From positions 21,434,501-21,498,500 of the forward strand of contig NC_036447.1 of NCBI RefSeq assembly GCF_002775205.1: 64,000 nt of DNA, given 5' to 3'. Source of the stretch: Xiphophorus maculatus. Taxonomy: Eukaryota; Chordata; Actinopteri; Cyprinodontiformes; Poeciliidae. Below, piece after piece: positions 5,501 through 40,100 of this stretch. The notes beneath the pieces were generated by a model. It saw only the letters and a list, made by a program, of their open reading frames with translations, did not search any database and had not been told where the DNA came from. The translations under genes and the position numbers were made by a program. Numbering within the stretch: position 1 is the first letter of the stretch; each line of letters begins with the position of its first letter.

Positions 5501-6763
5501 ACGGTGATATTTGTCACGCAGTTTAAAAATGTTGAGCTTCATGTGAGTGAGACAAACAACCCGTATCTGATCTGCTGCGTTTCCCTGGATGTAGTTTCCA
5601 GACACCGTGGAGTTTTGTGAGGAGATGGCCAATTTAGGGAAGACGGTCATCGTGGCTGCGTTGGATGGGACCTTCCAGAGGAAGGTGGGTGCTGACGCAT
5701 GCTGGGCAGATGTCACAAAACGTCCCACACAATGAACTCTTTTTCTTTTTTAAGGCAGAATCCAAACAATCGGCTGCAGCAGCAGATGAACGAGTGTGCT
5801 CATTATTCCACACACAATAGTGCCTTTCTTGTGATTGTAATGCTGTTAAGTCGCCATTCTTTTAGTGCTAGGCAATGTTTCTATGCTGTCTTTTGCGGTT
5901 TGTTTCTTCCTGCCTCTCTTTTTTTTCTTATTTGTACTAACAAAATAGCAATTATACATAAAGAAAGATCAGATATGTTCCCACCTGTTTGGATGTCCAG
6001 ATGTTTTTGGTTTTGACGACTTTCAGTCATTTTCTGTTCTTCTAGAGTTGGCATGTTGACCGCATTTTATTTCTTTGAAAATGCTACTAAGATGCCATCG
6101 CATTATATCCCAAAAACAGTTAAAATGTTGAATTAATAGTTACAGACATCAGTTTCTCTATCTAAGGCTCAGTCCAGGAAAAGGACAGTTAAACACAGAA
6201 CCACTGAGTGATGATGCTTGATACATTAGCGCAAAAGCTAGCTTGTACCGTTTCTTTCTTATATTTAGGATGATGCTACTTATAACCTGTTAGATGTTCT
6301 GCGTCTTCCTTTACGATTTTACTCTCTCAAACTGAACGCTTGTCCTTCCAGCCTTTTGGAAACATCCTGAACCTGGTTCCTCTGGCAGAAAGTGTGGTGA
6401 AGCTCCACGCCGTCTGCATGCAGTGTTACAAAGAAGCCGCCTACACCAAGAGGCTCGGAGCAGAGAAGGAGGTGAGGAGACCAGACAAACGGACCGGACC
6501 ATTTTAATGAGTTTTGGTCTAAATGGAGCAGATTCTATTACATCTCGTTATCAAACCCAACCGGATTCATTCCTCCTCTACAGGTGGAAGTGATCGGCGG
6601 TGCTGACAAGTACCAGGCGGTGTGCAGAAAGTGCTACGGCGGTCTGGTGGTGGACAAAGAGAACAACTCCTCTATCAGGAATGAAACGCCGCTTCACGTC
6701 CCGATGGGAAAACTCGCCGACCCCAACGTTCCCCGGAAACTGTTCTCCCCTCTGCACCTCTGA
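2541..6763 (+). CDS. tk1: Thymidine kinase 1, cytosolic (7 exons, 234 aa)
   Basis: It phosphorylates thymidine to dTMP with ATP in the S-phase salvage pathway. Exons: 2541-2615, 2739-2770, 3329-3442, 4457-4550, 5595-5684, 6352-6471, 6584-6763, all GT-AG, summing to 705 nt. The 234-aa length equals the human enzyme. The P-loop GPMFSGKS sits at residues 29-36 and the catalytic acid in DEGQF at E102. Zinc-binding pairs are CMQC (157/160) and CRKC (189/192). The lasso segment [10 protein letters not shown] is intact, and a KEN degradation box is at 200-202 (DKENN). The ATG gives an N-terminus that meets the conserved QIQ-IIFGP core in frame. Its neighbour syngr2 converges on it tail to tail. Intron 4 carries a Tc1 remnant. 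No damage is seen. Confidence 0.97.
3635..3652. repeat. (TTA)n microsatellite in tk1 intron 3
   Basis: A pure run of about six ATT units. A longer sibling of the same unit lies in syngr2 intron 3 and another in tmc6 intron 6. Confidence 0.85.
4705..5050 (+). mobile_element. Tc1/mariner-type transposase remnant in tk1 intron 4
   Basis: Broken reading frames still spell recognisable Tc1-like transposase pieces: [13 protein letters not shown] (about 4720-4760), then a stretch encoding a pattern like WP(S)...IQLRCRGMT (about 4890-4940) and SNVAEI-like text to about 5000. The frame is interrupted by a T run near 4790-4802 and by indels, so the copy is dead. No terminal inverted repeats were identified around it. 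Confidence 0.7.
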
Positions 6764-20100: not shown

Positions 20101-22364
20101 CAGCAAGATCTAGAGAAAGTCCTCCATGTGTTTTCTTCCTCTAGTGCTTTGTTTAGTCACATTGATTACTGCAATAGTGTCGTCACAGGTCTGATTTGAA
20201 AGAAAAAAATAAAATAAAATCAGACAGCTGCGGCTGATCCAGAACGCTGCTGCGAATCTTCTTACTAAAACCAAGAAGCTAGAGCAAACCATCCCATTTT
20301 TAAAGTCCTTACTCTGGCTCCCTGTAGCTCTGAGAAGTAATGATTCTAACTTTTAAACATCTGCAAAAGGTAAACTATGCTTGCATGAACCATCCACATT
20401 AGTAGTTGACTTTTGCAGGTTTTCTTCATTTCAGATCACAATAGTCCTTATAATCCAGTGGCTACGATCCACCGTATGGTGACTTCTCTTAGTCCTAGAC
20501 TAGCTAAAGCACATCATGGGACCCGGAGGTATGTTTCCAGAAAACAAAAAACAAAAACAAGATTAAAGTTAGGTTTAAATCACCAGATATAGACTCTGAT
20601 CTGGTATGAAGGAATTGCAAATGAGTTGTACACAGCCGCAGCAAGCATGCACTGCATTTACCCAGGGAGAGCAGTAGCTGACCAGGAGTAACAGGAAAGG
20701 GTCAGCAGGTGGGGGGAGGTATCACCTTACCTGCCCGTTCAGAGCCCCTATTTACCACCAACACTCTTCATCTCCCTCACACACACTGTGTTTCACATAA
20801 ACAACGATGGCAGCCAAGGGCATGTTCTGTCCTCAGCCCTCCTCTGATAGCCTGAATGCAGAACTTTATCTGCATCAAAATACACGTTTTGACTCCTCTG
20901 AATCTGGAGGATTTCATTTCTCAGGAGTATCTCAATTAGACAAAGAGAGTTTGGAAGGTTTTATTCCACCAGGGGGACGGAAACCGTCCCACTCAAAGTC
21001 TGAGTCAGACCCAGGCAGGCGAAGCCTGGGACGCTGTGGTTTTAGAGGCCTCAAAATTGTGCAAATGATCATTTTAGTAACCGATTAATTTAATTATTTT
21101 GACGATTAAACTGATATGAAAACACACATATTCTACATTTTTGTCATTTAACTTCTTAAGCCCTTTATATCCAATATTACAAATACATTAAATAAATGAT
21201 TCAATTCCTTTTTTAAGTAAGGAAAACATTTTATTGCCTAAAATGCAACGACATAGCATTCTTTTAGTAAACCTGAACCAGGTGAAGATAAACTAGAGCA
21301 CTTGAGGAGTTTTGGCTTAAATATATTTACAGACAAAGATGTTTTTGTCCTAAATGCAAACGTATATATTTTTAGTACAGTTCTGGCTTAATTAATGCCG
21401 TGAAAATACCCCCCCCCCCCAGATAACGATGAATCGATGAATCAGTTTCTAAATTTGTTGACGGTTGTTTCAATAATCGATTAATCTAATTAATTGTTTC
21501 AGTCATAATCACAACTGCTGGCAACAGTGATGTCACAGTCCCTCCTCTAACCTAACCTTTGACCCCTGGGCACTGACAGAGAGCTTTAACTGCATCCTCC
21601 ACATCTCCTACTGTGTGTTTGGTCAGTTTCAGTGACTGTGTTACTCCATTTAGGTTAACATGGTTACAGTCACATTTTCAGCAAAAGAGAAAAGAAAGAA
21701 AAAAGAGAATATCCAACATAATCCATAATCCAACAACCCTGAAGATCATGCTACCAAAACTCCTGAATTAGGCCCTGCTCACAGTAAATATTACTGTTTC
21801 ACGAGACACAATAATACAAATTTATATTTAATAAAATTACCTAGCAACAGGTAATTTTACACACAAGCATATCCCCCTCAGCATGAGTTACCATAATTTC
21901 TCCTCATAAGCGCCTCAACGTATAATATAACTACAGTCGTTTTCTTCCATTGCACAACATGGAAGTAGGACAGAGTTAAGGTCAGAGACTAACAGCAGCG
22001 TTCAGACGCTCAGTTCATCCCGGAAGTGAAAATCTACATGACATTTGTCTGCCTTTTGTCTTGAGTGTTGATCTGTCACCGCGCAGGCTGCAAAAAAAAA
22101 ACCCACCACGCCTGCTGGAGACGCACCACGAAGAACCAGTTTTAACTCTCCAGCTCATTTATTTATTTAAAACCAGAGTCCACCTGTTTACACATTAGGT
22201 TAAAATCTCCACCGGCTCTGTTTAAGTCCGAGCTCCTCCAGCCTCTCACTCACCCAGCTGAGGACCCGCACGATTGTTTGCGGCTGTCGGACGAACTTGT
22301 AGAAGTCAAAGCCTACTCCAGCCAGCGCGACTCCGTATGCACTTGCACCTCCGGTCTCCGCCAT
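11182..22364 (-). CDS. syngr2: Synaptogyrin-2 (cellugyrin), 4 exons, 242 aa
   Basis: A four-pass MARVEL-domain protein of small vesicles, broadly expressed and involved in vesicle trafficking. Exons (5' to 3'): 22254-22364, 16965-17202, 14509-14645, 11182-11424, total 729 nt with consistent phase. The N-terminus ends in FDFYKFVRQPQTIVRVLSW as in the family. TM1 spans the exon 1/2 junction, TM2 is GVIAFLACVAFLMLDVYV, then SNAQDRKYAVMADLGFS, TM3 WTFLWLVCFCLLASQW and TM4 IAFSFFSIATWGILTYF. The cytosolic tail is rich in Pro, Thr and Tyr (TYAPTTYTPTTYTYPS) and ends in YLPPKY. I chose the ATG at 22364 by similarity; an upstream in-frame Met would add 23 residues. Intron 1 is about 5 kb and repeat-filled. 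The neighbour tk1 is convergent; a dense CpG promoter lies upstream. Confidence 0.96.
11593..11624. repeat. Perfect 12-bp hairpin, 8-nt loop (syngr2 intron 3)
   Basis: TGGTGTCAGATA (11593-11604) is followed after CCGTGTGA by its exact reverse complement (11613-11624). Confidence 0.9.
12335..12374. repeat. Near-perfect hairpin with tandem 11-mer (syngr2 intron 3)
   Basis: CATGCTATGCTTT at the left pairs with the right arm ending GCATAGCATG; 13 bp are perfect, then one bulged T and about five more pairs. Inside, TTTTATAAAGC is directly repeated. Confidence 0.85.
12474..12509. repeat. Perfect 16-bp hairpin, 4-nt loop (syngr2 intron 3)
   Basis: TGTAAATACAGACATA (12474-12489) is followed by AATG and its exact reverse complement (12494-12509). 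It is the longest perfect short-loop stem noticed in the window. Confidence 0.92.
14025..14434 (+). mobile_element. 3' end of a non-LTR retrotransposon with (TATTC)n tail
   Basis: The segment around 14085-14150 encodes, in the plus frame, the LINE-type C-terminal pattern RRDRYRKSFLPHAISLYN. It is followed by an AT-rich 3' UTR and the ending TGGGATGAATAAAGCACTTC with a TATTC repeat tail (to about 14434). The tail ends about 75 bp from syngr2 exon 3. It is 5'-truncated, as usual for LINE insertions. Confidence 0.75.
15087..15110. repeat. (ATT)n microsatellite in syngr2 intron 2 region
   Basis: Eight uninterrupted ATT units between syngr2 exons 3 and 2. Confidence 0.9.
16039..16637 (+). mobile_element. 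Internally deleted mariner/Tc1-like element in syngr2 intron 2
   Basis: Terminal inverted repeats are TGGCCACTTTATTAG (16039-16053) and CTAATAAAGTGACCA (16623-16637), 14 of 15 positions complementary. The inside keeps transposase scraps: a GGHFLGHF-like stretch near 16375-16400, a TTSSDG-related segment near 16490-16515 and PDLDPTEQ-like coding text near 16555-16580. At about 600 bp it is much shorter than an autonomous copy and its frames are broken. Confidence 0.8.
16484..16514. repeat. Perfect 12-bp hairpin inside the mariner remnant
   Basis: CCATCAGAAGAG (16484-16495) pairs exactly with CTCTTCTGATGG (16503-16514) across a 7-nt loop. Confidence 0.88.
17526..17640 (+). repeat. Dispersed repeat copy related to the 52-kb element
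   Basis: The pattern TCTCAAACATGCATGAAAGA, then an AGCACTCCGTTTATG-like stretch, then ATATAGAGCTAAAATAAAAG reappears on the minus strand of about 52640-52775. This shows a multi-copy element within this one window. It lies in syngr2 intron 1. Confidence 0.6.
18330..18600 (+). mobile_element. L2-like LINE 3' fragment in syngr2 intron 1
   Basis: The plus strand encodes TAETFKSLLKTHFHSLPF, the usual C-terminal pattern of L2-type LINE polyproteins. AT-rich 3' UTR-like sequence follows. It is separate from, and lies before, the larger L2-like copy to its right. Confidence 0.65.
18850..20410 (+). mobile_element. Decayed L2-like LINE spanning endonuclease to reverse-transcriptase regions
   Basis: Pieces appear in the correct order with stops and shifts. 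An endonuclease start like NDFITEHNLCVMFLTET lies near 18900-18960, an NEFAS-type linker near 19312, and RT text around 19630-19700 (pattern for 'YRPISNLPF'). A segment like HIDYCNSVVTGL is near 20160-20195, and a QLRLIQNAAANLLTKT-like segment near 20225-20275. Two short foreign stretches interrupt it, including a SINE at about 19862. No intact ORF remains. Confidence 0.75.
19862..19990 (+). mobile_element. tRNA-derived SINE inserted in the LINE remnant
   Basis: A box A-like AGTGGTAGGAG near 19873 and a perfect box B-like GGTTCGAATCC (19908-19918) are spaced as in a polymerase III promoter. The body then has TCTCAGTCGTCGTGTCCATG, a motif common in fish SINEs. It does not fold as a usable tRNA. 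Confidence 0.7.
21065..21510. repeat. AATCGATTAAT-rich dispersed repeat with facing ends
   Basis: The left end has CCGATTAATTTAATTATTTT and the right end has AATAATCGATTAATCTAATT, with a C run near 21411-21420 between. It resembles a common fish MITE whose ends carry CGATTAAT blocks. Family and exact borders are undetermined. It lies in syngr2 intron 1. Confidence 0.45.
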
Positions 22365-22439
22365 GTCTGACCCTGGGAGTGGAGCCGGGTCCCCCGGACA
22401 AGTGAAGGCAGCCTGTGGGCTTAGAGGAACCAAAGCTAA

Positions 22440-22560
22440 AAAACGCTGCCACCTCCTGAGAGCGTTTCCCTGAAGTGACAGCCGCAGCAGGAGGCGGAGA
22501 GCGGCGCGGTGAGGGGCGGAGCTGCCGGGGAGCCGTCCGCCTGGAGGACCGACAGACTGT
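22440..22560 (-). promoter_or_regulatory. CpG-dense syngr2 promoter region
   Basis: A sharp local rise in G+C and CpG in otherwise AT-rich DNA lies just upstream of syngr2 exon 1. It includes GGGGCGG (Sp1-type box, about 22514-22520) and GCGGCGCGG. No TATA box is visible, as expected for a broadly expressed gene. Confidence 0.65.
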
Positions 22561-22564
22561 GTTG

Positions 22565-23770
22565 CTTTTTCACAAATACGTTTCTTTTTTTCTTTTAAAA
22601 AAAAATCCTTACACCAGAATTACAGTAAACTTTGGCCAGCTTGACTAATTTTGGATGAATTTTGGCTTCTTAAAGCTGAAGTTGCAACAATTTCCCTCAA
22701 AGGAAACTCACAGCAGAGATTCAGGGACCGAATCGTGAGGTTTGTCCTTTCTTAACCTCGACAATATTATGAACTCAAAGCTCTTGTTCTAAGCATCATC
22801 TCTGATCGTACCAAATTATTCCCTCTCCAGATTTTGGCTGACACTGCATGCAACCTGCAGCAGGCATGGAATGGTGCATAAGAGGATCTGATTTTTATCT
22901 CAGTTAAACAAAACTAGGTTTTCACTGAGGGACAGCAACGCCGCAGCTGCTTTCAGTCAAACTTTCTGAATTAAATTTCACCTCTTTGATTTCTGGCAAT
23001 TAATGCAGGAAAACGAGAACAGCTTTATTATTTCTAGCCAATGTGAAATGCAGTTTGTTTGCAAAGAGAACAAAAGAGAGCTAAACACAAGTGCATCAAT
23101 GAAATAAGACCGGATTGCAAATTCTGTACTACTCACAGGATAATTGAGATGTTTTATTATTACTTTAAAACGTGATGAATTAATAAAACGTAGTTTGTGT
23201 CGAGTCAAGTTTATTTGTGTAGCATATTTCAACAACAACAGGGCAGTTCAAATACAGTAACCAATTATGAAACCGGTTAACAGTCTTTAGATGATATGAA
23301 CATGGATGATTCAGTTTCAACAGATTTAACTTCTTGTTCTTGTTAGTTACACAACACTGGTTGGTGCGCACATTTAGGACGCTCAGAAAATTATGACCAA
23401 ACCAAGTGCAAACTCAGTAGAAATACAAACTCTTTCGGTTGTCTCCTCTGCAGTTTAGCAATGGTTGGTCAATGCTTTAGGTACAGTCTAATTCCTGGCC
23501 GTCCATTGATAGGTTTCAGGGAATTTCAACAGCAAAGCACAGTTACAAATGCTAAGTATGTGATTTTTTTGTATGTAGAATTGTGTATAATATCCAAATT
23601 AAGTAAGTTGATGTTATGTTACAAAATGTAAGAAAGACTTCAAGATATTTGACAAAAAGACACTGCTTATTTTATAAAAATACCTTTAACATCATTTTGC
23701 TAAAACTATTACTACAAATATCTACACTAAAATGGCACCAGGGTATAGATAATCAACTAAGCTATAGTGT
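22565..23770. other. Gap between syngr2 promoter and receptor gene IgA, with probable IgA 3' UTR
   Basis: No exon is supported. Minus-strand AATAAA candidates (TTTATT on the plus strand) occur near 23019 and 23210, suggesting an IgA 3' UTR of roughly 550-750 nt. Confidence 0.5.
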
Positions 23771-26700
23771 TCAGTTTGAGTCTTCATCAGCTTCATTCTC
23801 CAGTGTCCTTCTTTCCTGCTCGATCTGAGGCCATTCGTCCTCAGAGGCTTCAGATTCCTGACCAGGATATGAGAAAAATAGTTTGAATATTTGTTAACAA
23901 TGGCTGAATATTGAACTGAATGATGCCGTCACCTGATAAAGTTCGTCCTCTCTTGGTGCTTTCGCTACGTCTGGGTCCTCGTTGTACTCTGTCCAGTCCT
24001 ACAGGAGAAGATTTATATCGGGCGTTTAGGCTGGTGGTGTGATGTAGTGGAAACCTTCAGGTTTTGTAGGAACGCTGACTTACCACCTCGTTCTCAGATA
24101 CGACAAGTCTTTCGTCCATCGCCAAACTCGATCTAACAGTGAGTTTAAACACAGTTAGCTTGTTAGCATTTCAGAAACTTTTTATGTAAGTTTCAGCTCC
24201 TGACAGACCCAATCTGCATGATCGTTTGGGAAAATACAACCAAACAAATTTACAGTGTGATGAAGATTTGCAGGGTATTTATTATCGGCTGGAACTCAGG
24301 TGGGAGGTGTGGCATGTGGTAAAATGTTTTATTCCAGAAGAAGCAACAAAGCATACAGCGTTACTTCGTCTTTGAACGAAAATGCAGCTGAAACCAGATG
24401 TTTACATGCAGTTTTTTTCCTTTTCTTAAATCTGACATCAAATCAGACTAAACACCTCGCTGTTTTAGGTCAGTCAAGATTGCGAATCTGTTTGCAAAAA
24501 TTTTAGATTAGTTTCTATTTCACTAGATCACAAGACATGTTTGCAAAAAGCAAAAGATTTATCCCTGAGTCCTTTTGCAATTGTAACCTTGTTTTTCTTA
24601 TCCTGCTTGTGGACTAATGGCATCTTCCTCATTAAATGGCCTTTCAGCCCATGTTAGTACAGGACTTGTTACACTGTGGCTAATAAGTAACAACACTCTT
24701 ACTAGGTTCAGTCACCTTCTTTTGATTTCATCTTTAGGTTCATAACAAAAAATATTCTGGCAATTAGTAATCCTAAATCTCCATCACTTTATTCTCGTAC
24801 TGAATTATGGTCAAAACTAATGAGGGAAGTTCTGAATGAATTTTGTGGGAGCTGGATTTAACCCACATGAAGATGGCAAGAGACGAATCTACGGTTTATA
24901 ATATTTTAACAGAACCTCGCTTCACAAACTGCGATCTATTCTTTTAAAAGCAGCTGTGACGCTTATAGAAAACTGGAATAGAGACTTTTTAATTTTCACT
25001 TTGAGTCTATGATGTCATTCATTATCTTACCCCAAAACATTTTGGATTATTTTGTTTTCCAATAAATGAAAAAAAAAAACACACTCACTCTGACTTCTGT
25101 TGAGACAGTTTCCACCCTGAAAGAAGAACGGACAAATGTTCAGCATCTCCCCTTCACAGCAAAGGAAGACAAACCAAGATATGAAATCAGGCGAACTTAC
25201 TGAAGATGACTCCTGACAGACAACAAAACAACACCAGGAAAATCAGGAGCGCGAAACAGTTGAAGACCACAGCCACCACTAAGGTTGGAAGGCGATTCAG
25301 CACTAGGTAGAAAAATGGAAATCAGTCAGTGATTTGTCTCCAGGAGACGTTGCTCAAGCAACATTCAGCGTCTACCTTCTTTGTCCACATAAAGCCCTTT
25401 GCTGCTTATGACCGTGCTGTTGTCGAAGCTGTTCCACACTTCGCAGCGGTACTTTCCAGAGCTCCGTCTCCCCACGGCCATCAGCAGGACGGACTGTTCT
25501 GGCAGATCCACCACATAGAAGAAGCTTCCCTGCTCACGTAGAGGCATTTGGTTGAGGTACCACTGGAAACGTGGGTGAGTTCCCGCTGCCGCCTTGCAGT
25601 AGAGCCTGAGGCCAATGACGGCATAGTTATTTCCCATGTCGTATTCGGATTGGACCGTCACTGGGCCAGCGACTGACACTAGAGAAAGGAGACACAAAGT
25701 CAGAGGGATTGTAACCGTTGACGTATTTTGACCTTATGCTGTTCTGCCCACTTTTACTGTCTCAGTTTGAATTAAACTGTAAGTGCAGTTCTGGTTTACT
25801 GTTGATCGGCTTAAACCAAACCCCGACCCAGCAGAAATCCTTGTCTTAATAGAGTTGATGCATCGCACTGAGAGCTCATGAACTCTGAACAAAATGTATT
25901 TAACATTCCACGTAAAAGTAAATGACAATACAAAGTGCAATAATCTCCTGTACACTCTTCTTCTTTGGCGCCTTACACCATTTCCAGTATCACATATAAA
26001 AAAAACAACAAACAAAACAACAACAACCATATATTTTATCAAATCAAACTGTTTTTTAATAATTTGAATTTTGCATACATTTATTTAAGTTTAAAAACAC
26101 AAAAACAAAAAAAAACACAAGTTTTTTTTTTTGTTTGTTTTGAAACAGAAAAACCAAAAGACGAATCTTAACGGATTGGGTTTCTTCCATCTGCAGCACG
26201 TAGCTGAATGAAACGCTCCCCAATGAATGTAAACACAATGAAGTAATACCATGAACTCCTAATGTTGATAGCATATGTACTGCAGCACAGCTAACAGCAG
26301 GAAGTTAGCAAAGAGTCTGGATTTTTCATGATAAAAGTCTTTTTTGGGGGAAGGAAGGGGTATGAGGCTCTTATTTTGGTAAGTACTTATTGCAGATCTA
26401 CAGAGTAAGAAATACACAGCAGGGTTTTATGTTAGCCCAATTACCTACCAACTTCAAGAGGCAACCATCGACTGTATTCAGTCTGGTTCCCGTTCCTGGC
26501 CTGACACTGCAGCCATCCAGAGTGCTGGTCCAGGACCACTGGAAGACTGAACGTGGCGTGTCTCTCTGAAACGTTCTTCCTGACCATCAGCTCCATGCCC
26601 ATGTAGAGCGAGAAGCTTATCGGAGGATCGCCTCTCTCAGACTGGCAGGTGATGCTGGCTGAATAGTTGCCATCATCCTCCTTCACCACGGTGAATGAGA

Positions 26701-29513
26701 TGCGAGGGGTCGACACCAGATCTGAGGAAACAGAAACGAGGAGAACGTTTGATCTGCCGGGCTGAAATGCGGCGCCTTACAAGAGTATTAAACCCCTTTA
26801 AGCTGTTCCACATTTTGTCACGTTACACATTTTAAATGCATTCGATTGGAATTGTACTCGAATCACAAATTTCTTTCACAGAACGGCTGGATTTGAGATT
26901 AGACGACTCACTTTACTAACGACTTCTGAAAGAAACAGGTTGGACTGAACTGATTTAAAAAAATCTCCCCAATCAAGTACATTAATGTTTGTGGTTGCAA
27001 CATGACAAAATCTGAGAAGTTCAAGTGGTTTAGCTACATTTGCAAGCCACAGTGTAATCAAACACGTGCTGCGGATGACTTCCAACCTTTCACTGCGATA
27101 ACGAGGTCGGAGCTGTTGGAGGCGAACCATCTCGTTTCGTTGAAGACGTTTTTAGCCTGACACATGTAGGAGCCGCCATCTTTAGAGGACACTCTAGGAG
27201 AGACGCAGGTCATATAAACTATAACCAAGCAAACAAAGACTTCTGATACACTTTACCCTTAAAACTGTACTGTGTTTTGGTTTGAATGAGGTAAACGTGT
27301 CATGAAACAAAGACTGATGGTTAAAAAAAAACATCAAGCAGAAGTCTTGAATCATTGCAAGTTTTAAAACCCTTTCTTGTGTTTCAGAAAGGCAGAACTG
27401 AAACAGATTATCACCAAAACAGGTGACATTGTGCCTTATATTTCCAGTGATGACAGGAAAAGCTACTGCGCTGATTGCGTCCAATTACATCAGCTAAACT
27501 TCGGTCTTGTTTCAGCAACAGTGCAGATGTTGACATGTAAGATGTTTAAAGTAAAAATAGGAGGTAATTCACAAAGAACATCAATTTTCTCTGTTTATTT
27601 TGTGCTATTTTTCATCATTCAGTCATAATTTCTTATTTACGGAGCAGATTTCACTAAATAAGTGCAGATGGAAATACACCCATGAAATGCAGCTAATGCA
27701 AGCGGTTCACACCTGTTCTCACAACAGGCTGCAGCTGTCCCGTCTTCAGCCACAAACACAGCAGATGGAAAATTAACCAGAAAAACAATTATTTCCTCAC
27801 AAAGACCCCATGTCATTAATTGACGATTTTCTTCACCAAAACGTAAAAATGACATAAAAACTGTTCTGAATTTTTAAATCAATAAGTATCATTCAGCACT
27901 GCTGTAAATTTCAAAAATCAATTGACATTTGGAGAATTAGATGGAGGCACAAACATGGGTTTGCCCACATTTAGCAGTCAATTTAAAAAGCTCCAATACT
28001 TTAGCGCTCGAGTCTTAAAGGATTTCTTTTAAGACTCGAGCCATGTTCTTTTAAGCCATGTTTTATGCCATCACAGACCTGGTGATTATTAACCGGTTGT
28101 CTCCAATCCAGCGGACAGGAGACGGAGAGACGAGGCGCCCATTGAGAAACCAGTTGTAGGAAACATGATTTCCAGATTTAATTTTGCATTGCAGCTCTAT
28201 CTTGGTTTCCTCATAGATCTCTGTTGGACCTGTGTAAACAATCGCAGCGCCTTCGACTGGCACTGCAAAACAAACGAAAAAAAACAACAACACATTAACG
28301 TCACTACCACCGCTGTCAGAAAAGAGAATATGCAAAGATTTAATCTTTCGAGCTCCTGTATTTGAATGGTTTTTTATTTGTCTTTTCTGTACTCATTTAG
28401 CAGATTGTAACCAGATTATTTCAGCGATATTCAACCTGTTCCCCATGAAACCACACAATATTGTAATTGTTATAGTGCAGCCCTATTTTATAAAACCTAA
28501 ATAATGTGGACTTCAATAACTAATCAACAACATGCAAAGATATGATCTTAGTATGGATGTATTTCGTTTACACAACTGTGTATTTTTAATTCATTGGATG
28601 CTTGTGTTAAGGTATGATTATGTATTTGTGAGGTATCCTAAAGCACCTTCCTGAAGATAAAAAAACCGTAAATTTCCCCACTGCAAAACAATGAAAGGAA
28701 GTTCTATTCTATTCTATGAATTTAACAGAGTGTATATAAATAAGACATTCCTGCCATTGATGGGTGAAATTAACCAGAGTTGAACTGTTGCTGAGTGTAA
28801 AATAGTTTTTTGACCTTATATTTTAAGGAGACAGTTTTTAATGTGTAAAACAATGCATAATTCCTCCTACTCAACAGGACTTACCAATAACCCTTAAGAA
28901 GTGTACTTCGCTGACAGTCTCATTTATCTCCGTGTTGTTTTGTGCGCTGGCCACACATTCGAAGTAGCCCTCATGCTCAACTTTGATAACCTGGGGAAAG
29001 ATTCCCATCTCCTCCCCGGCTGAGAGGGTGTACTCTCCAAACATTTGTTTACGGTCATCCTTCCTGAAGACAGGAATTACAACGCGTCTCTTGTTGCTTT
29101 ATTTCTCCGAATGCATTTAACTCCAGTTGTAACCCGACTCCACTTACCTGTATAATGTCAGAAGAATCGGTTCATTACTTTCTGAACTGGGAATTTCACA
29201 CACCAAGGGAATGACATCGTCTACCAAAGCTTGCGAGGGGCCGTGGAGTCGTGGCTGGTCCAGTTGGAACTGATCTGTTGAAACAAACAACAACAAAAAA
29301 AAGAAATCCCAAAGAGCCATCAGCTTTCATCACCGGACGGCACACAAATGATCATGAAAATGTACTTACTGCTCTCTTTTGTGCAGCAGCACAACCCTGT
29401 AGGAATGGAGACGAAATCAGATGAAATGTTAGATTATTTCAAAATCCTTGACACTCGATTGAGTTTCTGCTGGCTTGCTTACCCAGGACGACCAAAAACA
29501 CAGAAGCAAACAT
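23771..29513 (-). CDS. Four-Ig-domain type I membrane receptor 'IgA' (FcRL/PECAM1-like; at the C17orf99/IL-40 position)
   Basis: 13 exons: 29483-29513, 29370-29396, 29148-29274, 28885-29063, 28079-28262, 27087-27193, 26449-26721, 25376-25678, 25201-25302, 25089-25116, 24084-24132, 23933-23998, 23771-23857; 1563 nt, 520 aa. The leader is MFASVFLVVLG plus a 27-nt mini-exon. Ig domains with cysteine pairs: D1 residues 20-121 (LVCEI/FECVA), D2 122-218 (LQCKI/YMCQA), D3 219-309 (ITCQS/LQCQA), D4 310-410 (LYCKA/YRCEV). The TM (411-444, uncharged) has LVVAVVFNCFALLIFLVLFC. The acidic tail (to 520) has tyrosines in TEYNED and ELYQES but no ITIM or ITAM. About ten N-glycosylation sequons are present. 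D1 and D2 are each split by an extra intron, unlike its neighbour IgB. The intron 5 donor is CAG/GTCTGT. The leader mini-exon and one-exon Ig modules are usual in FcR/FcRL/PECAM1 genes. Ligand and function unknown. Confidence 0.88.
26765..26885. repeat. Fragment of GTATTCATACC-type dispersed repeat (IgA intron 6)
   Basis: The text AGTATTAAACCCCTTTAAGC then CCACATTTTGTCACGTTACA matches the terminal motif of a family of which several other pieces occur in this window (32.5, 37.8, 42.5, 58.2 and 62.4 kb). Superfamily uncertain, possibly Tc1-like. Confidence 0.5.
28006..28041. repeat. Perfect 14-bp hairpin (IgA intron 5)
   Basis: GCTCGAGTCTTAAA (28006-28019) pairs exactly with TTTAAGACTCGAGC (28028-28041) across 8 nt. 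It lies about 40 bp from the donor of IgA exon 5. Confidence 0.9.
28560..28718 (+). mobile_element. LINE 3' tail with TTCTA repeat (IgA intron 4)
   Basis: The ending AATTTCCCCACTGCAAAACA followed by TTCTATTCTATTCTATG resembles the last bases of the LINE at 14025-14434. Only about 150 bp are recognisable. Confidence 0.55.
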
Positions 29514-29813
29514 GCTGAAGTCGTTTGTGCAGCGGGAGGCTTTGAATGGTGCAAAATCGGAGGGAATAAGTGGCAGTTGTAACTGGGTGGGTGAAACCGT
29601 GCGTCTGATGGCCTTACAGACAGAGTCAGAGAAACGTGCAGGCGACTGATAGAGCTGCAGGCCAACGCCTCCCGAGCTTCAGCGTCACTTCAGCTGGGAG
29701 AAATAAAACCGTCCTGCTGCAGTTCACTGAGTCAAACTTAGACTCACAGAGAAGCAAGGAAACATTGTTTTCTTTCACTTAATCGATGAAAACAGACGTT
29801 TACATCTTTAGAA

Positions 29814-29819
29814 TTTATT
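29814..29819 (-). terminator. IgB polyadenylation signal AATAAA
   Basis: TTTATT on the plus strand lies 170 nt past the IgB stop and about 300 nt before the IgA start codon. The two receptor genes are therefore packed head to tail. Confidence 0.55.
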
Positions 29820-29988
29820 TGCAAAACGACAAAGTACAGTAGTGGTTCAACACATTTTATCACTCTTTATACAGGAATAGCCCACTCTTAGAACATTTTA
29901 TAAAACATATCAGATTATTGAAAACAGAAAGTTGGTTACTTCATAAATAAATAATAATTAGCATGAATCAGGATCTTCTTGGATGTTT

Positions 29989-32900
29989 TTATACTGTGAT
30001 TTCAGCGATCTGAAACAGAAACAAAGACAGAATTAGTATGCCTTTTATTGTTCATAAGTTATATGTTTTTTATATTGTAAAGTTTATAGTCTGCATGGGA
30101 GCCAAAATAGAGCACATGCTAAAATATTAACAAAAATAAAATAAAAATAGTACACTCACATTAAGTCATGTAAAAATATATATTTTGCACCTACAGTATT
30201 TTCTTTTTCTTTTCAGAAAATGAAAGACCTTCAGAAATATATTTGAAAATTGTGTCTATTTGTGTTATTGAAAATTAAAAGTGTACAATACTAAAAAAAA
30301 TCACAGTTTAGAGGTGACAAGTAAAATAAAATTTATACTAAAATTACGACAGATAAACAAATAAATTACGTGGGTGACGTGTGACAAAAATCTAATTATT
30401 CAGATGGAACAAAAACTTTTTAAGACGTGACAAATAAAAAAAAAACCAAAACTAAAATGTATCAAATTGACAAAAAAAAGGCATTCATTGTATTTTTGTT
30501 CAGAAGGCGACAAAAATACAAATCATAAAATTACAGAGGAAACATATTGATAACAATATGGGAAAGTTGAAATTATATATAATTAATTATGAATGTGATC
30601 TATTTAGACATTTTCAATTGTCAAAGGGAAAAACATTCAAAATGAATGAATTATTCAAAAAATATGAAACTCTGTTATTAGTAGCAGTTATTTTTAGAAT
30701 CCATTCAAATCTGACTAAACTACTTAAAGAATCTAATTGCATTTAAAAAAAAAAAAAGTAAAGATGAAATGTATGAAAAAAAAAGAATAAAAAGTTGACT
30801 GAATTGTTCTTGCTGCTGTTGTTCCTGCAGCGCCAGTAATAACAACAGGAGGCGGATCGCCTCGCTTTGCCTAAACTCCGCCCACATTTTGAGCTCCACT
30901 GACGGCTAACAGATAAAACAGGCTTTACTCAGCGAATTCAAAACCACCAAACACTATCACCAGACCTGCATGTAACTCCTGCAGCTGTTGCTCTCAGAGA
31001 TCACATGTCATCACAAGGCGGCTGACATGCTGTGGTTGTTTTTCTGCTCTAGCAAATGAGCAACATGCATCCACTGATTAAACTGTGAGATATGAAGAAG
31101 AACTGATGCAACCGAAAGCTTAAACTTTAGCCAAAATCACATTTTCTAAGACGTAGGAGCATATTTTAAGCATCTAGGGCTGAAAGACCAAAGACCAGCC
31201 TGAATGAAGAAGCTTAAAGTGCTCTTGGCTGATTTAAACTGTGTTCAACCTGCAAGCAAACCTCAAGATGATGAGTGGTTAAAAGCTGAAACAAGCAGGT
31301 AACAGATGGCCGACATGTTCACATCTGCTGCAGAGCAAAAATATTTTATGTTATGCATTTACAAATACAACAGCGATAAGTGTGACTTTAATGCGTCCAT
31401 GCTGTAGCTGTGTAGATATAACCTACATAACAGGGAAGCATTTTTTCCAGTGCACTACTTTATTTCTAAAAACTTTTGTTTATTATTCTTTATTTAACCA
31501 GCAGGTTCTTTGTGATTATCATTTGTTTTTTGAGGGAGACCCAGCAGACACGGCACACGGGTCATTGCGAGAAAAAGCACAAATTGAATTAACATTAAAA
31601 CACACAAAAATAATAATTTTGCTTAATCAACTGTAACAATAAAGGACCTCCACTAATTTTATTGGTAACATTTCTTTCCAGAGAGCAACAACATGCTCCA
31701 GCCTGGAAACATTACAATAGACTTAAGTGCACAGTGTAAGTGCACCCTCTATTGATTACTTCTGTATCATTTTATGAAAGTGCTGCAGAGAAAGTATAGC
31801 TGTTACTACAGCTTTAAATAAAAATAAAAATATGGGGTTTTGAAGTAAAGTATTCTATCAACATGTCAGAAAACTTGATTAACTCTGGTGTATTCTAGGT
31901 TTACCTGGTTCCGGACATGACGGGACAAAGTATCCGTCTGAGACTCCGGCTCAGAGAGATGAAATGGTATTGTGCTGGAATCATAGAAAATATGCATTTC
32001 GTGCGCATAAAGGAGGCGATTTAAATCAAAGAAACGATAAAATGACTTTAAGTGGAAAAACTTACTTAGCTGCAGAAACATTGGTAGGAGCTGCAAATAA
32101 GGCACATACAGAGAACAAAACATGAATACCGCATTTCAGTCTGACAGATTGCACGCATGCTTTGCTGCACAGACCTGGGGAGTGGTCAAGCAACTTGAAC
32201 AGACAGGCGGAGGCCACTGCCAGCATCAGCAGGAAGAAGCAGCAGAACACTAAGGTGATAACTTCAGTAAGAAACCCTGCGGGTCAGAAGATACAAAGCA
32301 GTTAATGTAACACATCTTGGCTTTATGGGAGCATATTACTAGCGCCGTATATTATTTTTTACTTTGTGAAGTTTCACTGCAGAGTGATGCTTGAGCCACC
32401 GAGTTGCGGTTTTCCTCTGGTTGACGGGAAAACAAGCAGAATAAAAATTATAATCGCTCATCGTTACATCCGCAAAGTTCAGTGTGTTTTATTTAGATTT
32501 CATGTGATAGAAAACAACAAAACGATGCATGAATGTGAACTAGAGGGAAAAAAAAATTATGCATGGTTTTTGACTTTGTTTTTGAAGTAAAAATGTAACA
32601 ACTGTGGTGTGCATTTGTATCCAGCATCCCTGTTTCAAGTCTAAAAAAATTTACATTTTGGTCCATTCCTCTCTTCATAATATCCCAAAGTCAATCAGAT
32701 TGGATGGAGAAAATCTGTAACAAGTACTGTAAGTAGTACTTATTTTACTTCTGTTTTGAATGCAAAACCAAAGTATATAACATTAATATGGCATAAATCA
32801 GAAATGTTACACATCTATTTGTTTCCTTTGGCCTGACTGTTTGTATCCTAGACATCTGGTGACTACGTTGCCTAAAACTGTGCAGGCTATGTGGGACAAT

Positions 32901-35900
32901 GATTGGAAACGTAAGAGTGCATCTCCAACTTTTCATTTATGATAAATATTTTTTTTACTCACCGGTGATTCGGATAAGTACAGCGGCGCTTTCGGCCCAG
33001 GGCCCAGAGTCCTCGTAGCTGTCTCTGGCCCTGCAGCGGTAAGACCCAGAATCCTCTGCGCTGAGCTGAGTGAGGAAGAGGACTTTCTTTTGGTGGGTCA
33101 GGACAGCCTGAGGCTGAATCTCCTCGGGCAGAAGAACGGAGTCGTTGAGGAGCCAGGAGAAGAGTGGGAACGTCCCTCTGCTGATGTGACAGCTCAGCCT
33201 GGCAGCGGTCAGCGTGGCCTCAGCGCTGTACAGATAGTCCACTTCCACTCTCACATCCGCCCCGACCGGGACTGGAGACACAGTTAGAGGACAACAGGAA
33301 GGCTATGAGCTCAACAGGAAGGCTCTGAGCTCAATGGGTATGCAGAGTAAAATAATAATAAAAATAAACCCCAATATTTTTGATTGATTTAGCTCCTCAT
33401 AGAGAAAAAATATGGGTGTTCATTTTTCAAAGTCATATTTTCAACTTGTTACACATTTTTTTATTAATGTATTAATGTCAGTGAAGTCAGAGTTTCAAAC
33501 TAAACATTTAATTCACAGGTTAAATATTTAGTACACAAACTAAATATTTAGCTTTCAAATTAAATATTCAGTTTAGAAAATATTTAGTTTGAAACTATCT
33601 ACCAGTTAAATATTTAGCTCAGACTTAAACACTTAGTTGGTAAACTACATGTTTAGTTTGCAAAACATTTAACTGCAAAATAAATATTTATTTTGCTAAG
33701 TGAATATGTAGCTCCAAACTAAATATTTAATTTGCAAATTAAATCTTTAACTTGCAAAATATTTAGTTTGGATCGCTGACATTTATAAATGTGTAAACAA
33801 CATGGTGAAAATATGACTTTGAGAAATTATTACTCACATTTTGTTCTCAAAATATAGCAGCCTGTCGTAGAGAAAGATTGATGATGAGAAATTAAGAAAT
33901 GGCTCCCCGTCAACAAGGGAACCAGGAGTGTGGATCACAGAATGGCGTTGAACCTGAACACACATCTCACCTACTTCCAGAGCGAGGGCCTCACTCTTCA
34001 GGTCCTGCACCTCCGTTCTCCCTCGGCATCGGGCCTCTCCCATGTTCAGCCCGATCACAACAGGAACATCGAACCAGGCGGCGAGGGACTCTGCAGCTGT
34101 AGCAGACCTCACCTCCCTGTCGTCCAGCAGCAGAGAAAAGCTCACAGGCGGACTTCCTCTTGAGGACCGGCAGGTTACATTTCCATGGTAATCCTCCCCG
34201 TCTTTGAAAACGGAGATGGAAATTTCCGGTTTTGAAATCTTGACTGTGGAAAAGGAGGAGAAAGAAACGTAGAGAGAGACAGAGAGTGAATGTATTTTAG
34301 AAGAAACTCAACCAAACCAACAATTTCACACAGCAAATCCATCCAACACCCAGGGATGAAGTTAAAAAAGAGTCCAAACTTGTCAGGTGCTGGGTTGCTT
34401 TGGGGTTTGGTTATTTGGTTCTAGTTTTGATTTCTGTTCTTTGTTCACTTTAGTCTCATACTTTCGTTAGATCAGCCTTGTTTCTGTTTCACTTTAGTCC
34501 TTCGTAGTGATTCTAGTTTAATTCTGTTTATTTATTCCTAGTGTCTATTTTTTTTTACCAGCTCCCATGCTAGCGCTCTCTCTCTCCCCTCACACTGAAA
34601 CCTGTTTCTAATCAGCCACTGCTCCTTGTTTTGTAATGAAGCTCCTCAGTATTTTTACAACTCATTCTCAGTCATTACTTTCCTGTTACACCTGGCAGCT
34701 TTGTGCCTAGTTCCTGTGTTTTTGTTCTGCTTTGGCTCCCTGTGTTGTTTTTTGCAAGTTTTTGTTATCAATTTTCATTAAATATGAAACCAGCTCTCCG
34801 CCTCGGCCACATCTGCATTTAGGTCCGACTTCACCACCACACGTCATGACAAAGCCCTTCATACGAAGACATGCAACATACATGAAATATCGTTTTGTTG
34901 GCATTTACCTTTGACTGTCACCTTGACCTCTGCGCTGGTTGAATACCTGCTGATGTCTCGCACCACAGACCAAGCAACGCAGCTATAGCTTCCCTCCTGG
35001 TCCACAGTCACCTCCTCCATCACAAGTTTGTTCTCAGCGATAACGAATCCAGCGGTCGATGAGGTCACTTCCTTCCTGTTACGGTGCCAGGTGTACTTAA
35101 GGTCGGAACCTCTCTCAGCGTCGCAGCTCATGACAATTCTTGACCCCTCGTAGGCAACCGGCGGAAAGGGCTCAGAGGTCACCCTTGTGTTTGATGGCGG
35201 AGCTAGAAATAAATAAGGTGAAGCGCATTAGACTGAGTGTGAAGCTTGGGAACGTTCAGTAGAACCCAGACAAGTCCAAAACTTACTGACTACAGTCAGT
35301 TTGATCCTGTTGCTGAGTCCCGTTTTTCTTCCAGCAAACGCCCTGCACTGATATGAGCCACCTGCAGCTGTGTTGACTTTCAGGGGAAACGCTGTAGGTT
35401 GGTCCCCTTTGGGGCTGACTTCTGTCGCGACCAGGACACGACGATCCCTTATCAGCCTGTAGGCGACCCGAGAGGACAAGCCGGGGGCAGAACAGCGGAA
35501 GACCACCCTGGTGTTGAGGTAGGCTCTGTCAGGGCCAGACAGCACCGGACGGAGAGAACCTGGCTCACCTGGAGATTCAAGTCAAACTTATCATAAAGAA
35601 TGGAGCATAGCTAATGTGTATATAGCCTCAAAAATCTTTATGACAAACTAGCAGAAGGGCCAAGTTGAAATTAGCAGACTCACTGCAGTAAAAGAAGGAC
35701 AGTTGTTCTTGAAATCACATGTTCTTGGGTTAGTAATGGTTAAAATATGATATGCTGACAATCTGAGAGAGTTGATTACAGGTGTCATGGCATTATAGAC
35801 TAAGTCTTAATGTTTTAGGATTTATCTTGAAATTGTGCATTCGACCTTTGATCTTTCCTACGTTTTGATTTTGGTTTCCTATTTTAAAGTCGGTTCTCGT

Positions 35901-36618
35901 CTCTCTGTGCAGTGATTGTTTTTTAGTGATGAATGTACAACAATTTCCCTTCTTGTTTTTACTTGATCTCTTTATGGACTTAAGCTCACCTGCCACTTTA
36001 TTCTATGCTAGTGCTGGATTGGCAACTAAACCTTAATCCTCCATAGCACAGATTAAGCATTGAAGCTTCCATTATACCAAATTGTAGCTGCTGAGTTGGT
36101 TGGATTTTGTCAATATTTGCTACATGCACTGTCAAAGGTTGCTACCGGTTACTCGCCCTGTGTTTTCTGTCTAACAGCTATAATGAGATTTTGTTTTTTG
36201 TTGATAATCAGCAAGCCAAAGTGAACCCAAGAAGTCAGAAAATCAGTAATCCATATTGTACATTTTGACTGGATATTTTCTCACAAATCCCTTTAAAATG
36301 CCAGTTTGAGACGTTTTTCCCAGTTCACCATAGACGCATTAAAATGTTGTGTCCTCCTGAAATCTAAAGTTTATAAAGTGCACCGAAGTGTTTGAAGAGT
36401 TTTCACTGGTTGAGAGTAAACACTGCTCCATATCTGAGCGATCACACTCACCTATCGTGACGGGCAAACTTGCTAGAGCTAAAGGAACAAATTAAAAAAA
36501 GCAAATCAACAACATGAGTCAGAAGGAATGTTAGCCCAGTAAATAAACCATTCAGATCTTAAGTCCCAAGTTACTCACCCAGGATTGGCAGTAAATATAA
36601 AGTGAGATGGTTCTTCAT
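29989..36618 (-). CDS. Four-Ig-domain type I membrane receptor 'IgB' (tandem paralogue of IgA)
   Basis: 10 exons: 36579-36618, 36452-36478, 35287-35568, 34909-35202, 33971-34243, 32963-33271, 32175-32276, 32066-32090, 31905-31974, 29989-30009; 1443 nt, 480 aa. The leader (MKNHLTLYLLPILGALASLP) again uses a 27-nt second exon. Ig domains, each on one exon with phase-1 borders: D1 23-116 (FRCSA/YQCRA), D2 117-214 (MSCDA/YSCVA), D3 215-305 (VTCRS/ARCRG), D4 306-408 (LSCHI/YRCRA). The TM exon is 102 nt (EVITLVFCCFFLLMLAVASA). The tail is short, has no tyrosine and ends QIAEITV, a possible class II PDZ ligand. The last 21-nt coding exon is the weakest call: it lies 1.9 kb from exon 9, but has a good acceptor, the right phase, a prompt stop and AATAAA 170 nt beyond. 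Exon 2, D3 and TM exon lengths equal those of IgA. Ligand unknown. Confidence 0.85.
30010..31904. other. IgB intron 9, AT-rich
   Basis: About 1.9 kb with no further supported exon. It is A-rich low-complexity sequence from about 30120 to 30800 (AAATAAAA runs). Confidence 0.5.
32440..32690. repeat. GTATTCATACC-type dispersed repeat fragment (IgB intron 6)
   Basis: The text CATGTGATAGAAAACAACAA, then ATGCATGGTTTTTGACTTTG and GTGTGCATTTGTATCCAGCA follows the order seen in this common fish repeat. It is a longer piece than the copy in IgA intron 6. Confidence 0.6.
33495..33775. repeat. Degenerate minisatellite of about 20-bp units (IgB intron 5)
   Basis: Roughly a dozen imperfect repeats of AAATATTTAGTTTGCAAACT, which is itself nearly palindromic, so copies can be read on either strand. 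It sits about 200 bp from the IgB exon for D3. Confidence 0.75.
34370..34850 (+). repeat. Probable retroelement-derived repeat (IgB intron 4)
   Basis: T-rich sequence with TTAGTCTCATACTTTCGTTA and ending TGCATTTAGGTCCGACTTCA-CCACCACACGTCATGAC. This resembles the 3' part of a repeat common in fish genomes. Superfamily not determined; similar T-rich text recurs near 35800-35990. Confidence 0.4.
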
Positions 36619-37137: not shown

Positions 37138-40100
37138 TCAGGGAGCGCCATGGAGGAGCTTTTTCTGTTCCACAGCAGCAGGACGGGCTCTGCTTGAGTT
37201 CTTAGGACCTCTCAGTAAGGTGGCATGCTGCTTCACCAGGAACCGTTTATCTGAGCTGCACTGTAGGGGAACAACAACAAGAATCCACACATAGCATTAA
37301 CACAAACAGGACAGAAGCTCACAAAGCGCAGATAAAAGTTAAAATGACGAGAGCCAAGTTAAACGAATGTTTCTTTCTTTCACAAAAATGAACCGAATGC
37401 TCAGTTTTCTTTGCTTCATGCTAATCCTGACATTGAACAGGATTAAAATGAAATGTGAAATGTTACCCACTTTTTACGACTAGGTAAACCCTGTACATTT
37501 CATATCGGGATGCTATAAGAATCATACAAATATCAGAGTTAAAAATGATTTGGAAGCTTACCATAATCAGCATATCTTTAAGCCTTTCGATTGCCTTCTG
37601 GTTGGCGCGTCCTCGTGACACATACGATGTCAGGATGATGCTGAGGACACAAAATGTTACATTTTCATTTCACATCATATCTAATCTCCAGTGGATCCAA
37701 TCAGATTAACGTAGAGTTGATGGACAACAACCACACAACATGGTTGGCAGCTTGCGAAAGTATTCATACCTCTTCCAAATAGACTTCAATGGATTTTATT
37801 GGGATTTTATGTGATGTAGCAACACAAAATCAATCATCATACATAAAGTAGAAGAAAGGGGAAGCATAGTTTTTGAAATTGTTGTACAAATAAAAATCTG
37901 GAAGCTTTTATAGTTACTCCGCCATTTTGAATCAGTACTTCTGAAGTTGCTTCCACTGAATTACTTTATGAAGTTTGTAACATGATAAAATATGAAGAGA
38001 TGTTCAGGATGTTCTGGTGCCACCTGTTGGTAGTAACTTATTCTTCAAACAGGTAAAGCTGCATTCCTCATTGTGCTAAAAGATGACGTCTAATGTAACT
38101 TACATCTCAGCTAGCAGGAGAGGCAGGGCAAAGGCTTGTGAGGACAAGTACTTGAGAACATTCTGGACTGAGTTGGGAAGACTTGTCACGCAGGTGTTTG
38201 TCACAGTAAGCACAGTTTCATTTTTAAGCGGACCACAGGAGATCCTGAAGCAGGAGACAGAGAGAAAAATCTGTATCAAAAAAAGGTTAATAAAATAAAA
38301 AAAAAAAAAAAACACGCACAATTTGAACAATTTTAGATAGAAAGCTGTTCCTGAAACATATAGTGTCATATTGAAAATACTGAGAGAGAGTAATGGAACA
38401 ATGTGTACTTGTTTGTTCCCTCGACCAGGTGGAAGTCAATTATCGGTGCGGCTGCAGCCATGAGGAGACCCAGCAACAGCATGAAGTGGAATAAAACCGA
38501 AGAGCTGGAGGCTCGAAACATCCGCTGCTCCGCCTCGCAACACTGCAGAACATCAAACTGAAGGAACACGGAAACACGCAGAGATAGGAGTTTTATTCCC
38601 ACTTCACCGCCGCCAGTGCTTTAAGGCTGCAGATCAAAAAAGTTGCAATCAATTACAAAAAGTAAAATTTGGACTTTTTTTTTAGTGCCAAATGTTTAAG
38701 AAAAGGGTAATATTTATCTCCATTATTAGGATAAACATTTTTGTATAATTTTTTAGACATCGTCTAAGAAACAAGAACAGCAGCAGCTGTGAACACAAGC
38801 CAACATTGCTAAGCTAACTGGTTGCTAGCTTTATAACAAACTGTGGACTTAGGAGGTGGTAAAGGAACTAGAAACATCTTTAATCATATACACTTAAATA
38901 AAATATATACATATTACTGCATGAAACCCGTTTGCCTGCCATCCGGTCTCCTGGTTTCATTAGTTAGATTTTTAAAAAGTTACATAGGAATATTAACAAG
39001 ACAAGTGGGATGCATTAGTCAGGCATAACATTACGACCACCGGCAGGTGTAGTGAAAAACTTTTAAGTGATTATCTATTCATGACAGGACCCTTCTAGTG
39101 GGTGGGATGTGTTGAGCAGCAACAACGCCTGCGGATTAAAATGATAAAGAGGTTTGTGCTGTTTATGAGACAGAAAATGCACCTGAGTTTGTTGAATGCA
39201 GGGCTGCATAGCCACAAACCAATCAGGGTCCCCACCCTGGTCATAATGTTATGCCTGATCAATTTATTTGATCATGCGAATCTCTTGTTTCGCTCTGCTA
39301 CCTTTTGGATGTAGAATATCACCAACAGGCTGACTACTCCGATCATAGGCAGCAGGGGGCAGTAGTAGACTCCAACCCACAACACAGTTTGGATGTAGAC
39401 CAGATCCAGAACTTTGAACGGGATCAGAAACCGCTGCCTCCCGCACAGCCGGACCAGAAAGCAGGTTGGGTGCTTCTCCTGCAAAAGCCTGCCAAACAGC
39501 AGGAACACAAGCACATTCGTCAGCGTGGTAAAACAAACAAAAACAAAAAAACAAACATCGAGCATGCGTGGGCTTTCTGTAGAAATCATCACAATGACTA
39601 TGAAAGAAACCGAGTGATCTCAAGCAAACCCACTTCCTGGGGTAGTTCACCAAAAAAGTGTTGCAGAAAGTGGTGAGGAAGTTGAAGATGCACAGATTGT
39701 ACATCTGAATGCCAATCTGGTTTTCCCTGCACAGACGCTGCAAAGAAAAAACACAAAACAACAAAAAAATTAAGTCAAAAGGAGAATTTTTTCGTTTGTT
39801 TGTTTGCTTTTTGAAAAAAGTGCCAGTAGTTCAAACAAAGAATTTACTAAGGGCTTGAAACCGAAGTCAAACCGTAGTTCACGCTCATAATCTATGCCAA
39901 TAAATTCCAAATATTTAAATCATTGCCAAGTTTAGCAGAATAACTCAGATCTGGTTGGTTTTATGAAGGTAAAATATTACCTATTCCTTTCACTTTCACT
40001 TACATTTTCGACTGATGTTTTGAAGAGGAAAACTAAGTAGATCCCCAGGGAAGCCAGCTTCAAGAAGATACTCCTGAATAAAAGACACGGTGAACCCTTG

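Follow-up and report, generated by a model that had tools for sequence, protein, structure and literature searches.

Does the interval between TMC8 and SYNGR2, which in human holds C17orf99, the gene of interleukin-40 (IL-40), contain a counterpart of this cytokine in fish? IL-40 is a product of activated B cells. We analysed 64,000 nucleotides of the Xiphophorus maculatus genome (C5:21434501-21498500, hereafter the window), in which two tandem genes, gene 1 and gene 2, fill the slot between tmc8 and syngr2; the studied stretch runs from the stop codon of gene 2 (position 23771) to the ATG of gene 1 (36618). With a probability of about 0.74, they are type-I membrane receptors of the PECAM1/FCRL/IL-40 immunoglobulin (Ig) family and, by position, co-orthologues of mammalian C17orf99/IL-40, the mammalian form being shortened and secreted.

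Passages of three reports from 2021–2026 present IL-40 as restricted to mammals, as an earlier reading of the window from its letters (the sequence-only reading) had also described it, and as sharing no high homology with other proteins or families of cytokines (PMC12967690, PMC10923619, PMC8566875). According to passages of two of them, no receptor of IL-40 is known (PMC12967690, PMC10923619). Among the papers listed in our search of the literature on IL-40, synteny of the slot, FCRL and PECAM1, which left most subscription journals outside its coverage, we found no report linking the fish genes to IL-40; the genes themselves may already carry automatic database names such as FCRL5-like. If the link is true, a receptor-type origin gives IL-40 a family and makes the kind of partner to seek for it predictable. 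It would also offer, in the fish membrane counterpart, a system for testing signalling and, in IL-40, a case of a receptor trimmed down to a cytokine.

Two complete receptor genes in the slot

Exon limits were set by eye at GT/AG signals and the exons were then joined by script. Both spliced models (9 and 13 exons) stay in frame up to the last codon; every splice site is intact, no stop interrupts the frame, and each model encodes four Ig domains (D1 to D4) that all begin and end in phase 1 (Table 1). The best Pfam Ig matches of the two spliced proteins reach 5.4e-25 and 2e-27, and hydrophobic peaks mark a signal peptide and a membrane segment in both. In both genes the second signal-peptide exon measures 27 nt, the D3 exon 273 nt and the transmembrane exon 102 nt. 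Together with the Pfam domains of the flanking genes, this confirms what the sequence-only reading had seen, two phase-consistent four-Ig receptor genes on the minus strand of the syngr2–tmc8 interval; both are complete and splice-consistent.

Of the eight domains, gene 1 D3 scores lowest with the general Ig models (none above 14.6 bits; 16.1 bits with PF17736), and gene 2 D1 is next, its 18.5 bits with Ig_2 lying below the cut-off of that model. An Ig hidden Markov model run over the 1267 open reading frames (ORFs) of the window placed the ten Ig exons of both genes on top and nothing else at E < 0.1; having been built from a set that included these domains, it is no independent proof of them, and it shows that there is no third Ig gene within the window. 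Phase-2 introns interrupt D1 and D2 of gene 2 and no Ig domain of gene 1, a difference between tandem partners that is an intron gain or loss after the duplication.

The cytoplasmic tails differ. That of gene 1 ends in NLEYTRVNQVF, with one tyrosine resembling an immunoreceptor tyrosine-based inhibitory motif (ITIM); that of gene 2 is acidic, its two tyrosines both lie outside an ITIM context, and the membrane core of this protein is free of charged residues. Splicing at a possible donor after position 31905 would remove the ITIM-like motif of gene 1, and we favour the longer last exon because of a polyA signal at 31663, 203 nt past the stop codon. This alternative donor, and the fact that the models are known from genomic sequence alone, would fit one or both genes being decaying pseudogenes from which no receptor is made, an explanation that we consider very improbable in view of the intact splice sites of all 9 and 13 exons, the open frames and the polyA signal behind gene 1.

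Position in the slot and family of the domains

From left to right, the window contains tk1 (+), syngr2 (-), gene 2 (-), gene 1 (-), tmc8 (-) and a further TMC gene (+). Both genes thus stand between tmc8 and syngr2 in the orientation of C17orf99, which in human adjoins TMC8. Human TMC8, SYNGR2, TK1, BIRC5, C17orf99 and AFMID are listed within one 151.2-kb duplication at 17q25.3 (passage of PMC7801512), and C17orf99–SYNGR2 read-through transcripts place these two genes next to each other on the same strand (passage of PMC7544212).

PF17736, the IL-40 (C17orf99) domain of Pfam with a cut-off of 26 bits, ranks first among the families for gene 1 D1 (25.3 bits), gene 1 D3 (16.1 bits) and gene 2 D3 (35.8 bits). 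Among single domains only gene 2 D3 passes the cut-off, which both whole proteins exceed (48.3 and 41.4 bits). As controls, human IL-40 scored 242.4, human PECAM1 74.3, PECAM1 D5 38.9 and PECAM1 D2 18.4 bits, and human FCRL5 D6 and D7 27.0 and 34.2 bits; since PECAM1 and FCRL5 also match PF17736, such a match is by itself no sign of IL-40. Over the whole 704-Mb fish genome, which all genome-wide searches covered, three exons among 28 candidates scored reached E < 0.001, namely gene 2 D3 and the exons at C5:16791537 and C16:16605574; gene 1 was not among them. The latter two are D5 exons of six-Ig genes whose D1s group with human PECAM1 D1 (94/93). Human PECAM1 also has its three best genome matches in these genes, which are pecam1a and pecam1b, two separate fish pecam1 genes.

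Nearest relatives in genome-wide searches

A checked human IL-40 sequence served as query. Against the whole fish genome it gave four matches, the first of which is gene 2 D3 (18.5 bits, 33% identity, IL-40 residues 124-207) at an E value of 0.26 that is not significant alone. Against the 64-kb window alone, tblastn reached E 1.6e-4, and the second match was again gene 2 D3 (0.006). With phmmer over the ORFs of the window, IL-40 D2 found gene 2 D3 at 2e-6, and IL-40 D1 found gene 2 D3 at 0.001 and gene 1 D1 at 0.045, while in the same test FCRL5 D7 gave 3e-6 and PECAM1 D5 0.016; blastp of IL-40 against the two spliced proteins gave 2e-6 for gene 2 and 0.002 for gene 1. Among 2899 ORFs from 62 genomic sources, IL-40 D2 scored 24.1 bits with gene 2 D3 versus 18.8 bits with pecam1a D5. 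In the same set, IL-40 D1 scored 18.4 bits with pecam1a D5, 18.2 with an exon on C18, 16.4 with pecam1b D5 and 15.8 with gene 2 D3. In the genome as a whole, the nearest relative of gene 1 is gene 2 and vice versa (36% identity in D3, 8e-8 and 5e-8).

The searches with the two other families behaved differently. All 33 genome matches of human PECAM1 lie outside the window, the top three being pecam1b, pecam1b and pecam1a, and with human FCRL5 D5-D9 gene 2 D3 ranks 46th of 87. Among solved structures, FCRL5 matches both fish proteins best (2.3e-27 and 5.6e-27), as it does human IL-40 (7.1e-11).

Domain trees and the competing origins

In a tree of 36 domains, IL-40 D2 joins the D3s of gene 1 and gene 2 (support 85/80); a wider, weak group of eight (69/77) also takes in IL-40 D1, three PECAM1 D5s and PECAM1 D2. 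With six rows omitted, IL-40 D2 and both D3s stay together (83/58); the wider group of eight dissolves, leaving IL-40 D1 without a resolved position. The D2s and the D4s of the two genes pair with each other (93/83 and 97/96) and not with PECAM1 D4 or D6. A strand-C motif, P[ILVM]x[YFN][STQ]L, which was written post hoc after viewing the sequences, occurs in seven of the 36 domains, namely both IL-40 domains, both D3s and the three PECAM1 D5s. It is also found in 6 of 63 Ig-like fish ORFs, of which two are gene 2 D3 from overlapping loci and the others gene 1 D3, the D5s of pecam1a and pecam1b, and an exon on C3.

In approximately unbiased (AU) tests on the 36 domains, p values were 0.22 for both IL-40 domains with the D3s, 0.10 for both IL-40 domains with the PECAM1 D5s and 0.07 for all seven D5-type rows together. 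With six rows omitted, they were 0.28 for the D3s with the PECAM1 D5s, 0.17 for the D3s with FCRL5, 0.11 for the two IL-40 domains together and 0.058 for IL-40 D2 with FCRL5.

Two other origins of the fish pair are accommodated by these values. The pair might be FCRL5-like receptors that arrived independently. In that case IL-40 would have arisen in mammals out of a different family copy, and the common position would be a coincidence or reflect a chromosome rich in such genes. The solved-structure matches, the close similarity of FCRL5 D7 to gene 2 D3, about equal to that of IL-40 D2, and the unrejected grouping of the D3s with FCRL5 would all fit, as would the zebrafish FCRL-type genes, FCRL5-like, of which two each are placed on chromosomes 3 and 7 (passage of PMC4016189). 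Yet human FCRL5 D5-D9 finds 45 better places in the genome than gene 2 D3, and IL-40 D2, not FCRL5, stands beside the D3s in both trees. PF17736 is the top family for gene 2 D3 and not for the two FCRL5 domains tested, and the signal-peptide exons measure 40/27 nt (gene 1) and 31/27 nt (gene 2) against 30/21 in mammalian FCRL1-6 (passage of PMC2413239). We regard an independent FCRL5-like origin as unlikely.

Alternatively, the pair could be shortened local copies of pecam1, with D1 to D4 corresponding to PECAM1 D3 to D6, and otherwise unrelated to IL-40. One pecam1 gene lies on the same chromosome, C5, about 4.7 Mb off, D3, of the PECAM1-D5 type, precedes a single Ig domain and the membrane segment as in the PECAM1 layout, and the D3s can be grouped with the PECAM1 D5s without rejection. 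Set against this are the absence of the window from the human PECAM1 matches, the mutual pairing of the D2s and D4s, and the retention of six Ig domains in both pecam1 copies, so that we give a pecam1 origin only a small chance. The sequence-only reading had named a firm placement of the domains inside PECAM1 as what would speak against it; the trees give no such placement, and the fish has two pecam1 genes besides.

The preferred reading, descent from a common ancestor with IL-40, has its own weak points. Tree support for IL-40 D2 with the D3s is moderate and the AU tests reject no alternative in either set of domains; IL-40 D1 has no clear partner among the 2899 fish ORFs; PF17736 unites IL-40, PECAM1 and FCRL domains, so that a match to it is not specific to IL-40; and the genome-wide IL-40 match, not significant alone, is one of five candidates scored, though at a place that synteny had named in advance. 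A change from receptor to secreted protein would, moreover, follow from parsimony. What the sequence-only reading had proposed is thus supported in part: its idea of common ancestry gained from the slot, from PF17736 being best for three of the domains, from the first genome match of IL-40 and from the place of IL-40 D2 in both trees. That mammals shortened a receptor, its further suggestion, would follow from the membrane form of the relatives. Overall, common descent of IL-40 and the fish slot genes appears to us just as probable as the co-orthology given at the outset.

A possible route from receptor to cytokine

PECAM1 and FCRL5 are membrane proteins, as both fish genes appear to encode, and because these relatives are receptors the secreted two-domain IL-40 would be the derived state. 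The bony-vertebrate ancestor may have carried, between TMC8 and SYNGR2, a multi-Ig receptor gene including one PECAM1-D5-type domain. Fish would have retained the membrane receptor and then duplicated it in tandem; in the mammalian line, Ig domains, membrane segment and tail would have been lost, leaving IL-40 as a secreted protein of two Ig domains. There is a precedent for losing the membrane segment in this family, in which FCRLS is described as soluble and FCRLA and FCRLB as intracellular (passages of PMC4016189). The argument that PECAM1 arose from FCRL5 (passage of PMC7916592) agrees with the single PECAM1/FCRL/IL-40 family seen here.

The partner of the ectodomains might be an Ig-family or antibody-type protein. 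Gene 1 would be inhibitory through its single LEYTRV tyrosine, presumably by way of SH2 phosphatases. Since gene 2 lacks both an ITIM and charged residues in the membrane core, it may be a partner receptor, an adhesion receptor or a decoy. On this reasoning, IL-40 would be a soluble receptor ectodomain with an Ig-family protein as partner. We lean, with somewhat less confidence than in common descent, towards IL-40 being no orphan mammalian cytokine but what remains, in secreted form, of an old PECAM1/FCRL-family membrane receptor, inhibitory or paired, whose place between TMC8 and SYNGR2 predates the fish–mammal split and whose membrane form fish have kept.

Surroundings of the slot

Both syngr2 and pecam1 occur in paired copies on C5 and C16, which, like the gene content, would fit a teleost. 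C16 carries a duplicated slot with syngr2 and TMC genes, and the 59 kb analysed there contained no Ig exon. At C16:11545053-11588151, the second syngr2 (-) is accompanied by several TMC-domain exons (+), two of which have equal scores, which suggests tandem copies. Another divergent TMC pair (- then +), with a tmc8/tmc6-like layout, lies about 1 Mb from the window at C5:20430841-20450514. Within the window, one further piece of tmc8 gave no TMC match in the Pfam scan, nor did the short pieces of the TMC gene on the plus strand. A cluster of Ig-receptor exons at C5:25588147-25709958 includes several opposite-strand pairs with equal scores in the FCRL5 search, as if it were partly an inverted duplication.

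Table 1. Features of the two slot genes and their neighbours (positions in the window).
Feature	Position	Strand	Description and evidence
Gene 1, whole coding span	31866..36618	-	9 exons, 486 aa; split signal peptide, 4 Ig, transmembrane segment (TM), tail with LEYTRV; spliced model, Pfam, TM peak
Gene 1 exon 1	36579..36618	-	ATG, first signal-peptide part, 40 nt, ends in phase 1; spliced model
Gene 1 exon 2	36452..36478	-	27-nt signal-peptide mini-exon; spliced model
Gene 1 D1 exon	35287..35568	-	Best family PF17736, 25.3 bits, just below cut-off 26
Gene 1 D2 exon	34909..35202	-	Ig_3 43.1 bits
Gene 1 D3 exon	33971..34243	-	IL-40/PECAM1-D5 type; best family PF17736, 16.1 bits, below cut-off; nearest relative genome-wide gene 2 D3
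Gene 1 D4 exon	32963..33271	-	Spliced model, Pfam
Gene 1 transmembrane exon	32175..32276	-	102 nt; spliced model, hydrophobic peak
Gene 1 exon 8	32066..32090	-	Juxtamembrane, 25 nt; spliced model
Gene 1 last exon	31866..31974	-	ITIM-like LEYTRV (Y479); polyA signal 31663; possible alternative donor after 31905
Gene 2, whole coding span	23771..29513	-	13 exons, 520 aa; split signal peptide, 4 Ig, TM, acidic tail without ITIM; spliced model, Pfam
Gene 2 exon 1	29483..29513	-	ATG, 31 nt; spliced model
Gene 2 exon 2	29370..29396	-	27-nt signal-peptide mini-exon; spliced model
Gene 2 D1	28885..29274	-	Two exons, 29274-29148 and 29063-28885, phase-2 intron; weak Ig match, 18.5 bits
Gene 2 D2	27087..28262	-	Two exons, 28262-28079 and 27193-27087, phase-2 intron; spliced model, Pfam
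Gene 2 D3 exon	26449..26721	-	PF17736 35.8 bits (cut-off 26); first genome-wide match of human IL-40
Gene 2 D4 exon	25376..25678	-	Spliced model, Pfam
Gene 2 transmembrane exon	25201..25302	-	102 nt; spliced model, hydrophobic peak
Gene 2 tail exons	23771..25116	-	25116-25089, 24132-24084, 23998-23933, 23857-23771; spliced model
syngr2, downstream flank	11182..22619	-	ORF limits 22619-22200, 17235-16687, 14757-14419, 11451-11182; MARVEL 84.4 bits
tk1 3' exons	6286..6763	+	ORF limits; convergent with syngr2; TK 51.6 and 20.9 bits
tmc8 TMC-domain exons, upstream flank	39296..39731	-	TMC 72.5 bits for one exon
TMC-domain exon of divergent second TMC gene	63115..63225	+	tmc6 by position; TMC 39.8 bits

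Comparison with known systems

With C17orf99/IL-40, the fish genes share the TMC8–SYNGR2 slot, the orientation and the PF17736 type, and gene 2 D3 is the best fish match of IL-40 D2. They differ in that IL-40 is a secreted protein of two Ig domains without a membrane segment, whereas the fish have two genes, each with four Ig domains, a transmembrane exon and a tail.

PECAM1 (CD31) resembles the slot genes as a membrane Ig receptor with ITIM-like tyrosines and a PF17736-type D5 that, in the human layout, is second from the membrane. It has six Ig domains, unlike the four here, and its fish loci lie apart at C5:16.79 Mb and C16:16.6 Mb; human PECAM1 retrieves the slot genes in 0 of its 33 matches. 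The pecam1b locus contains an open frame with the ITIM-like VEYAQL, comparable to the VQYTEV of the PECAM1 ITIM. Two ITIM-type tyrosines are described for the PECAM1 tail (passage of PMC4810170), against one ITIM-like motif in gene 1 and none in gene 2.

FCRL1-6, and FCRL5 in particular, share with the slot genes the two-exon signal peptide, the best solved-structure match and the closeness of FCRL5 D7 to gene 2 D3. They differ in their 30/21-bp signal-peptide exons, in PF17736 not being the first family of the two domains tested, and in human FCRL5 retrieving 45 other places of the fish genome before gene 2 D3. Fish Ig receptors distantly related to FCRL, some of them with ITIMs, have been described (passage of PMC4810170), and by that description they are like the two receptor genes of the slot.

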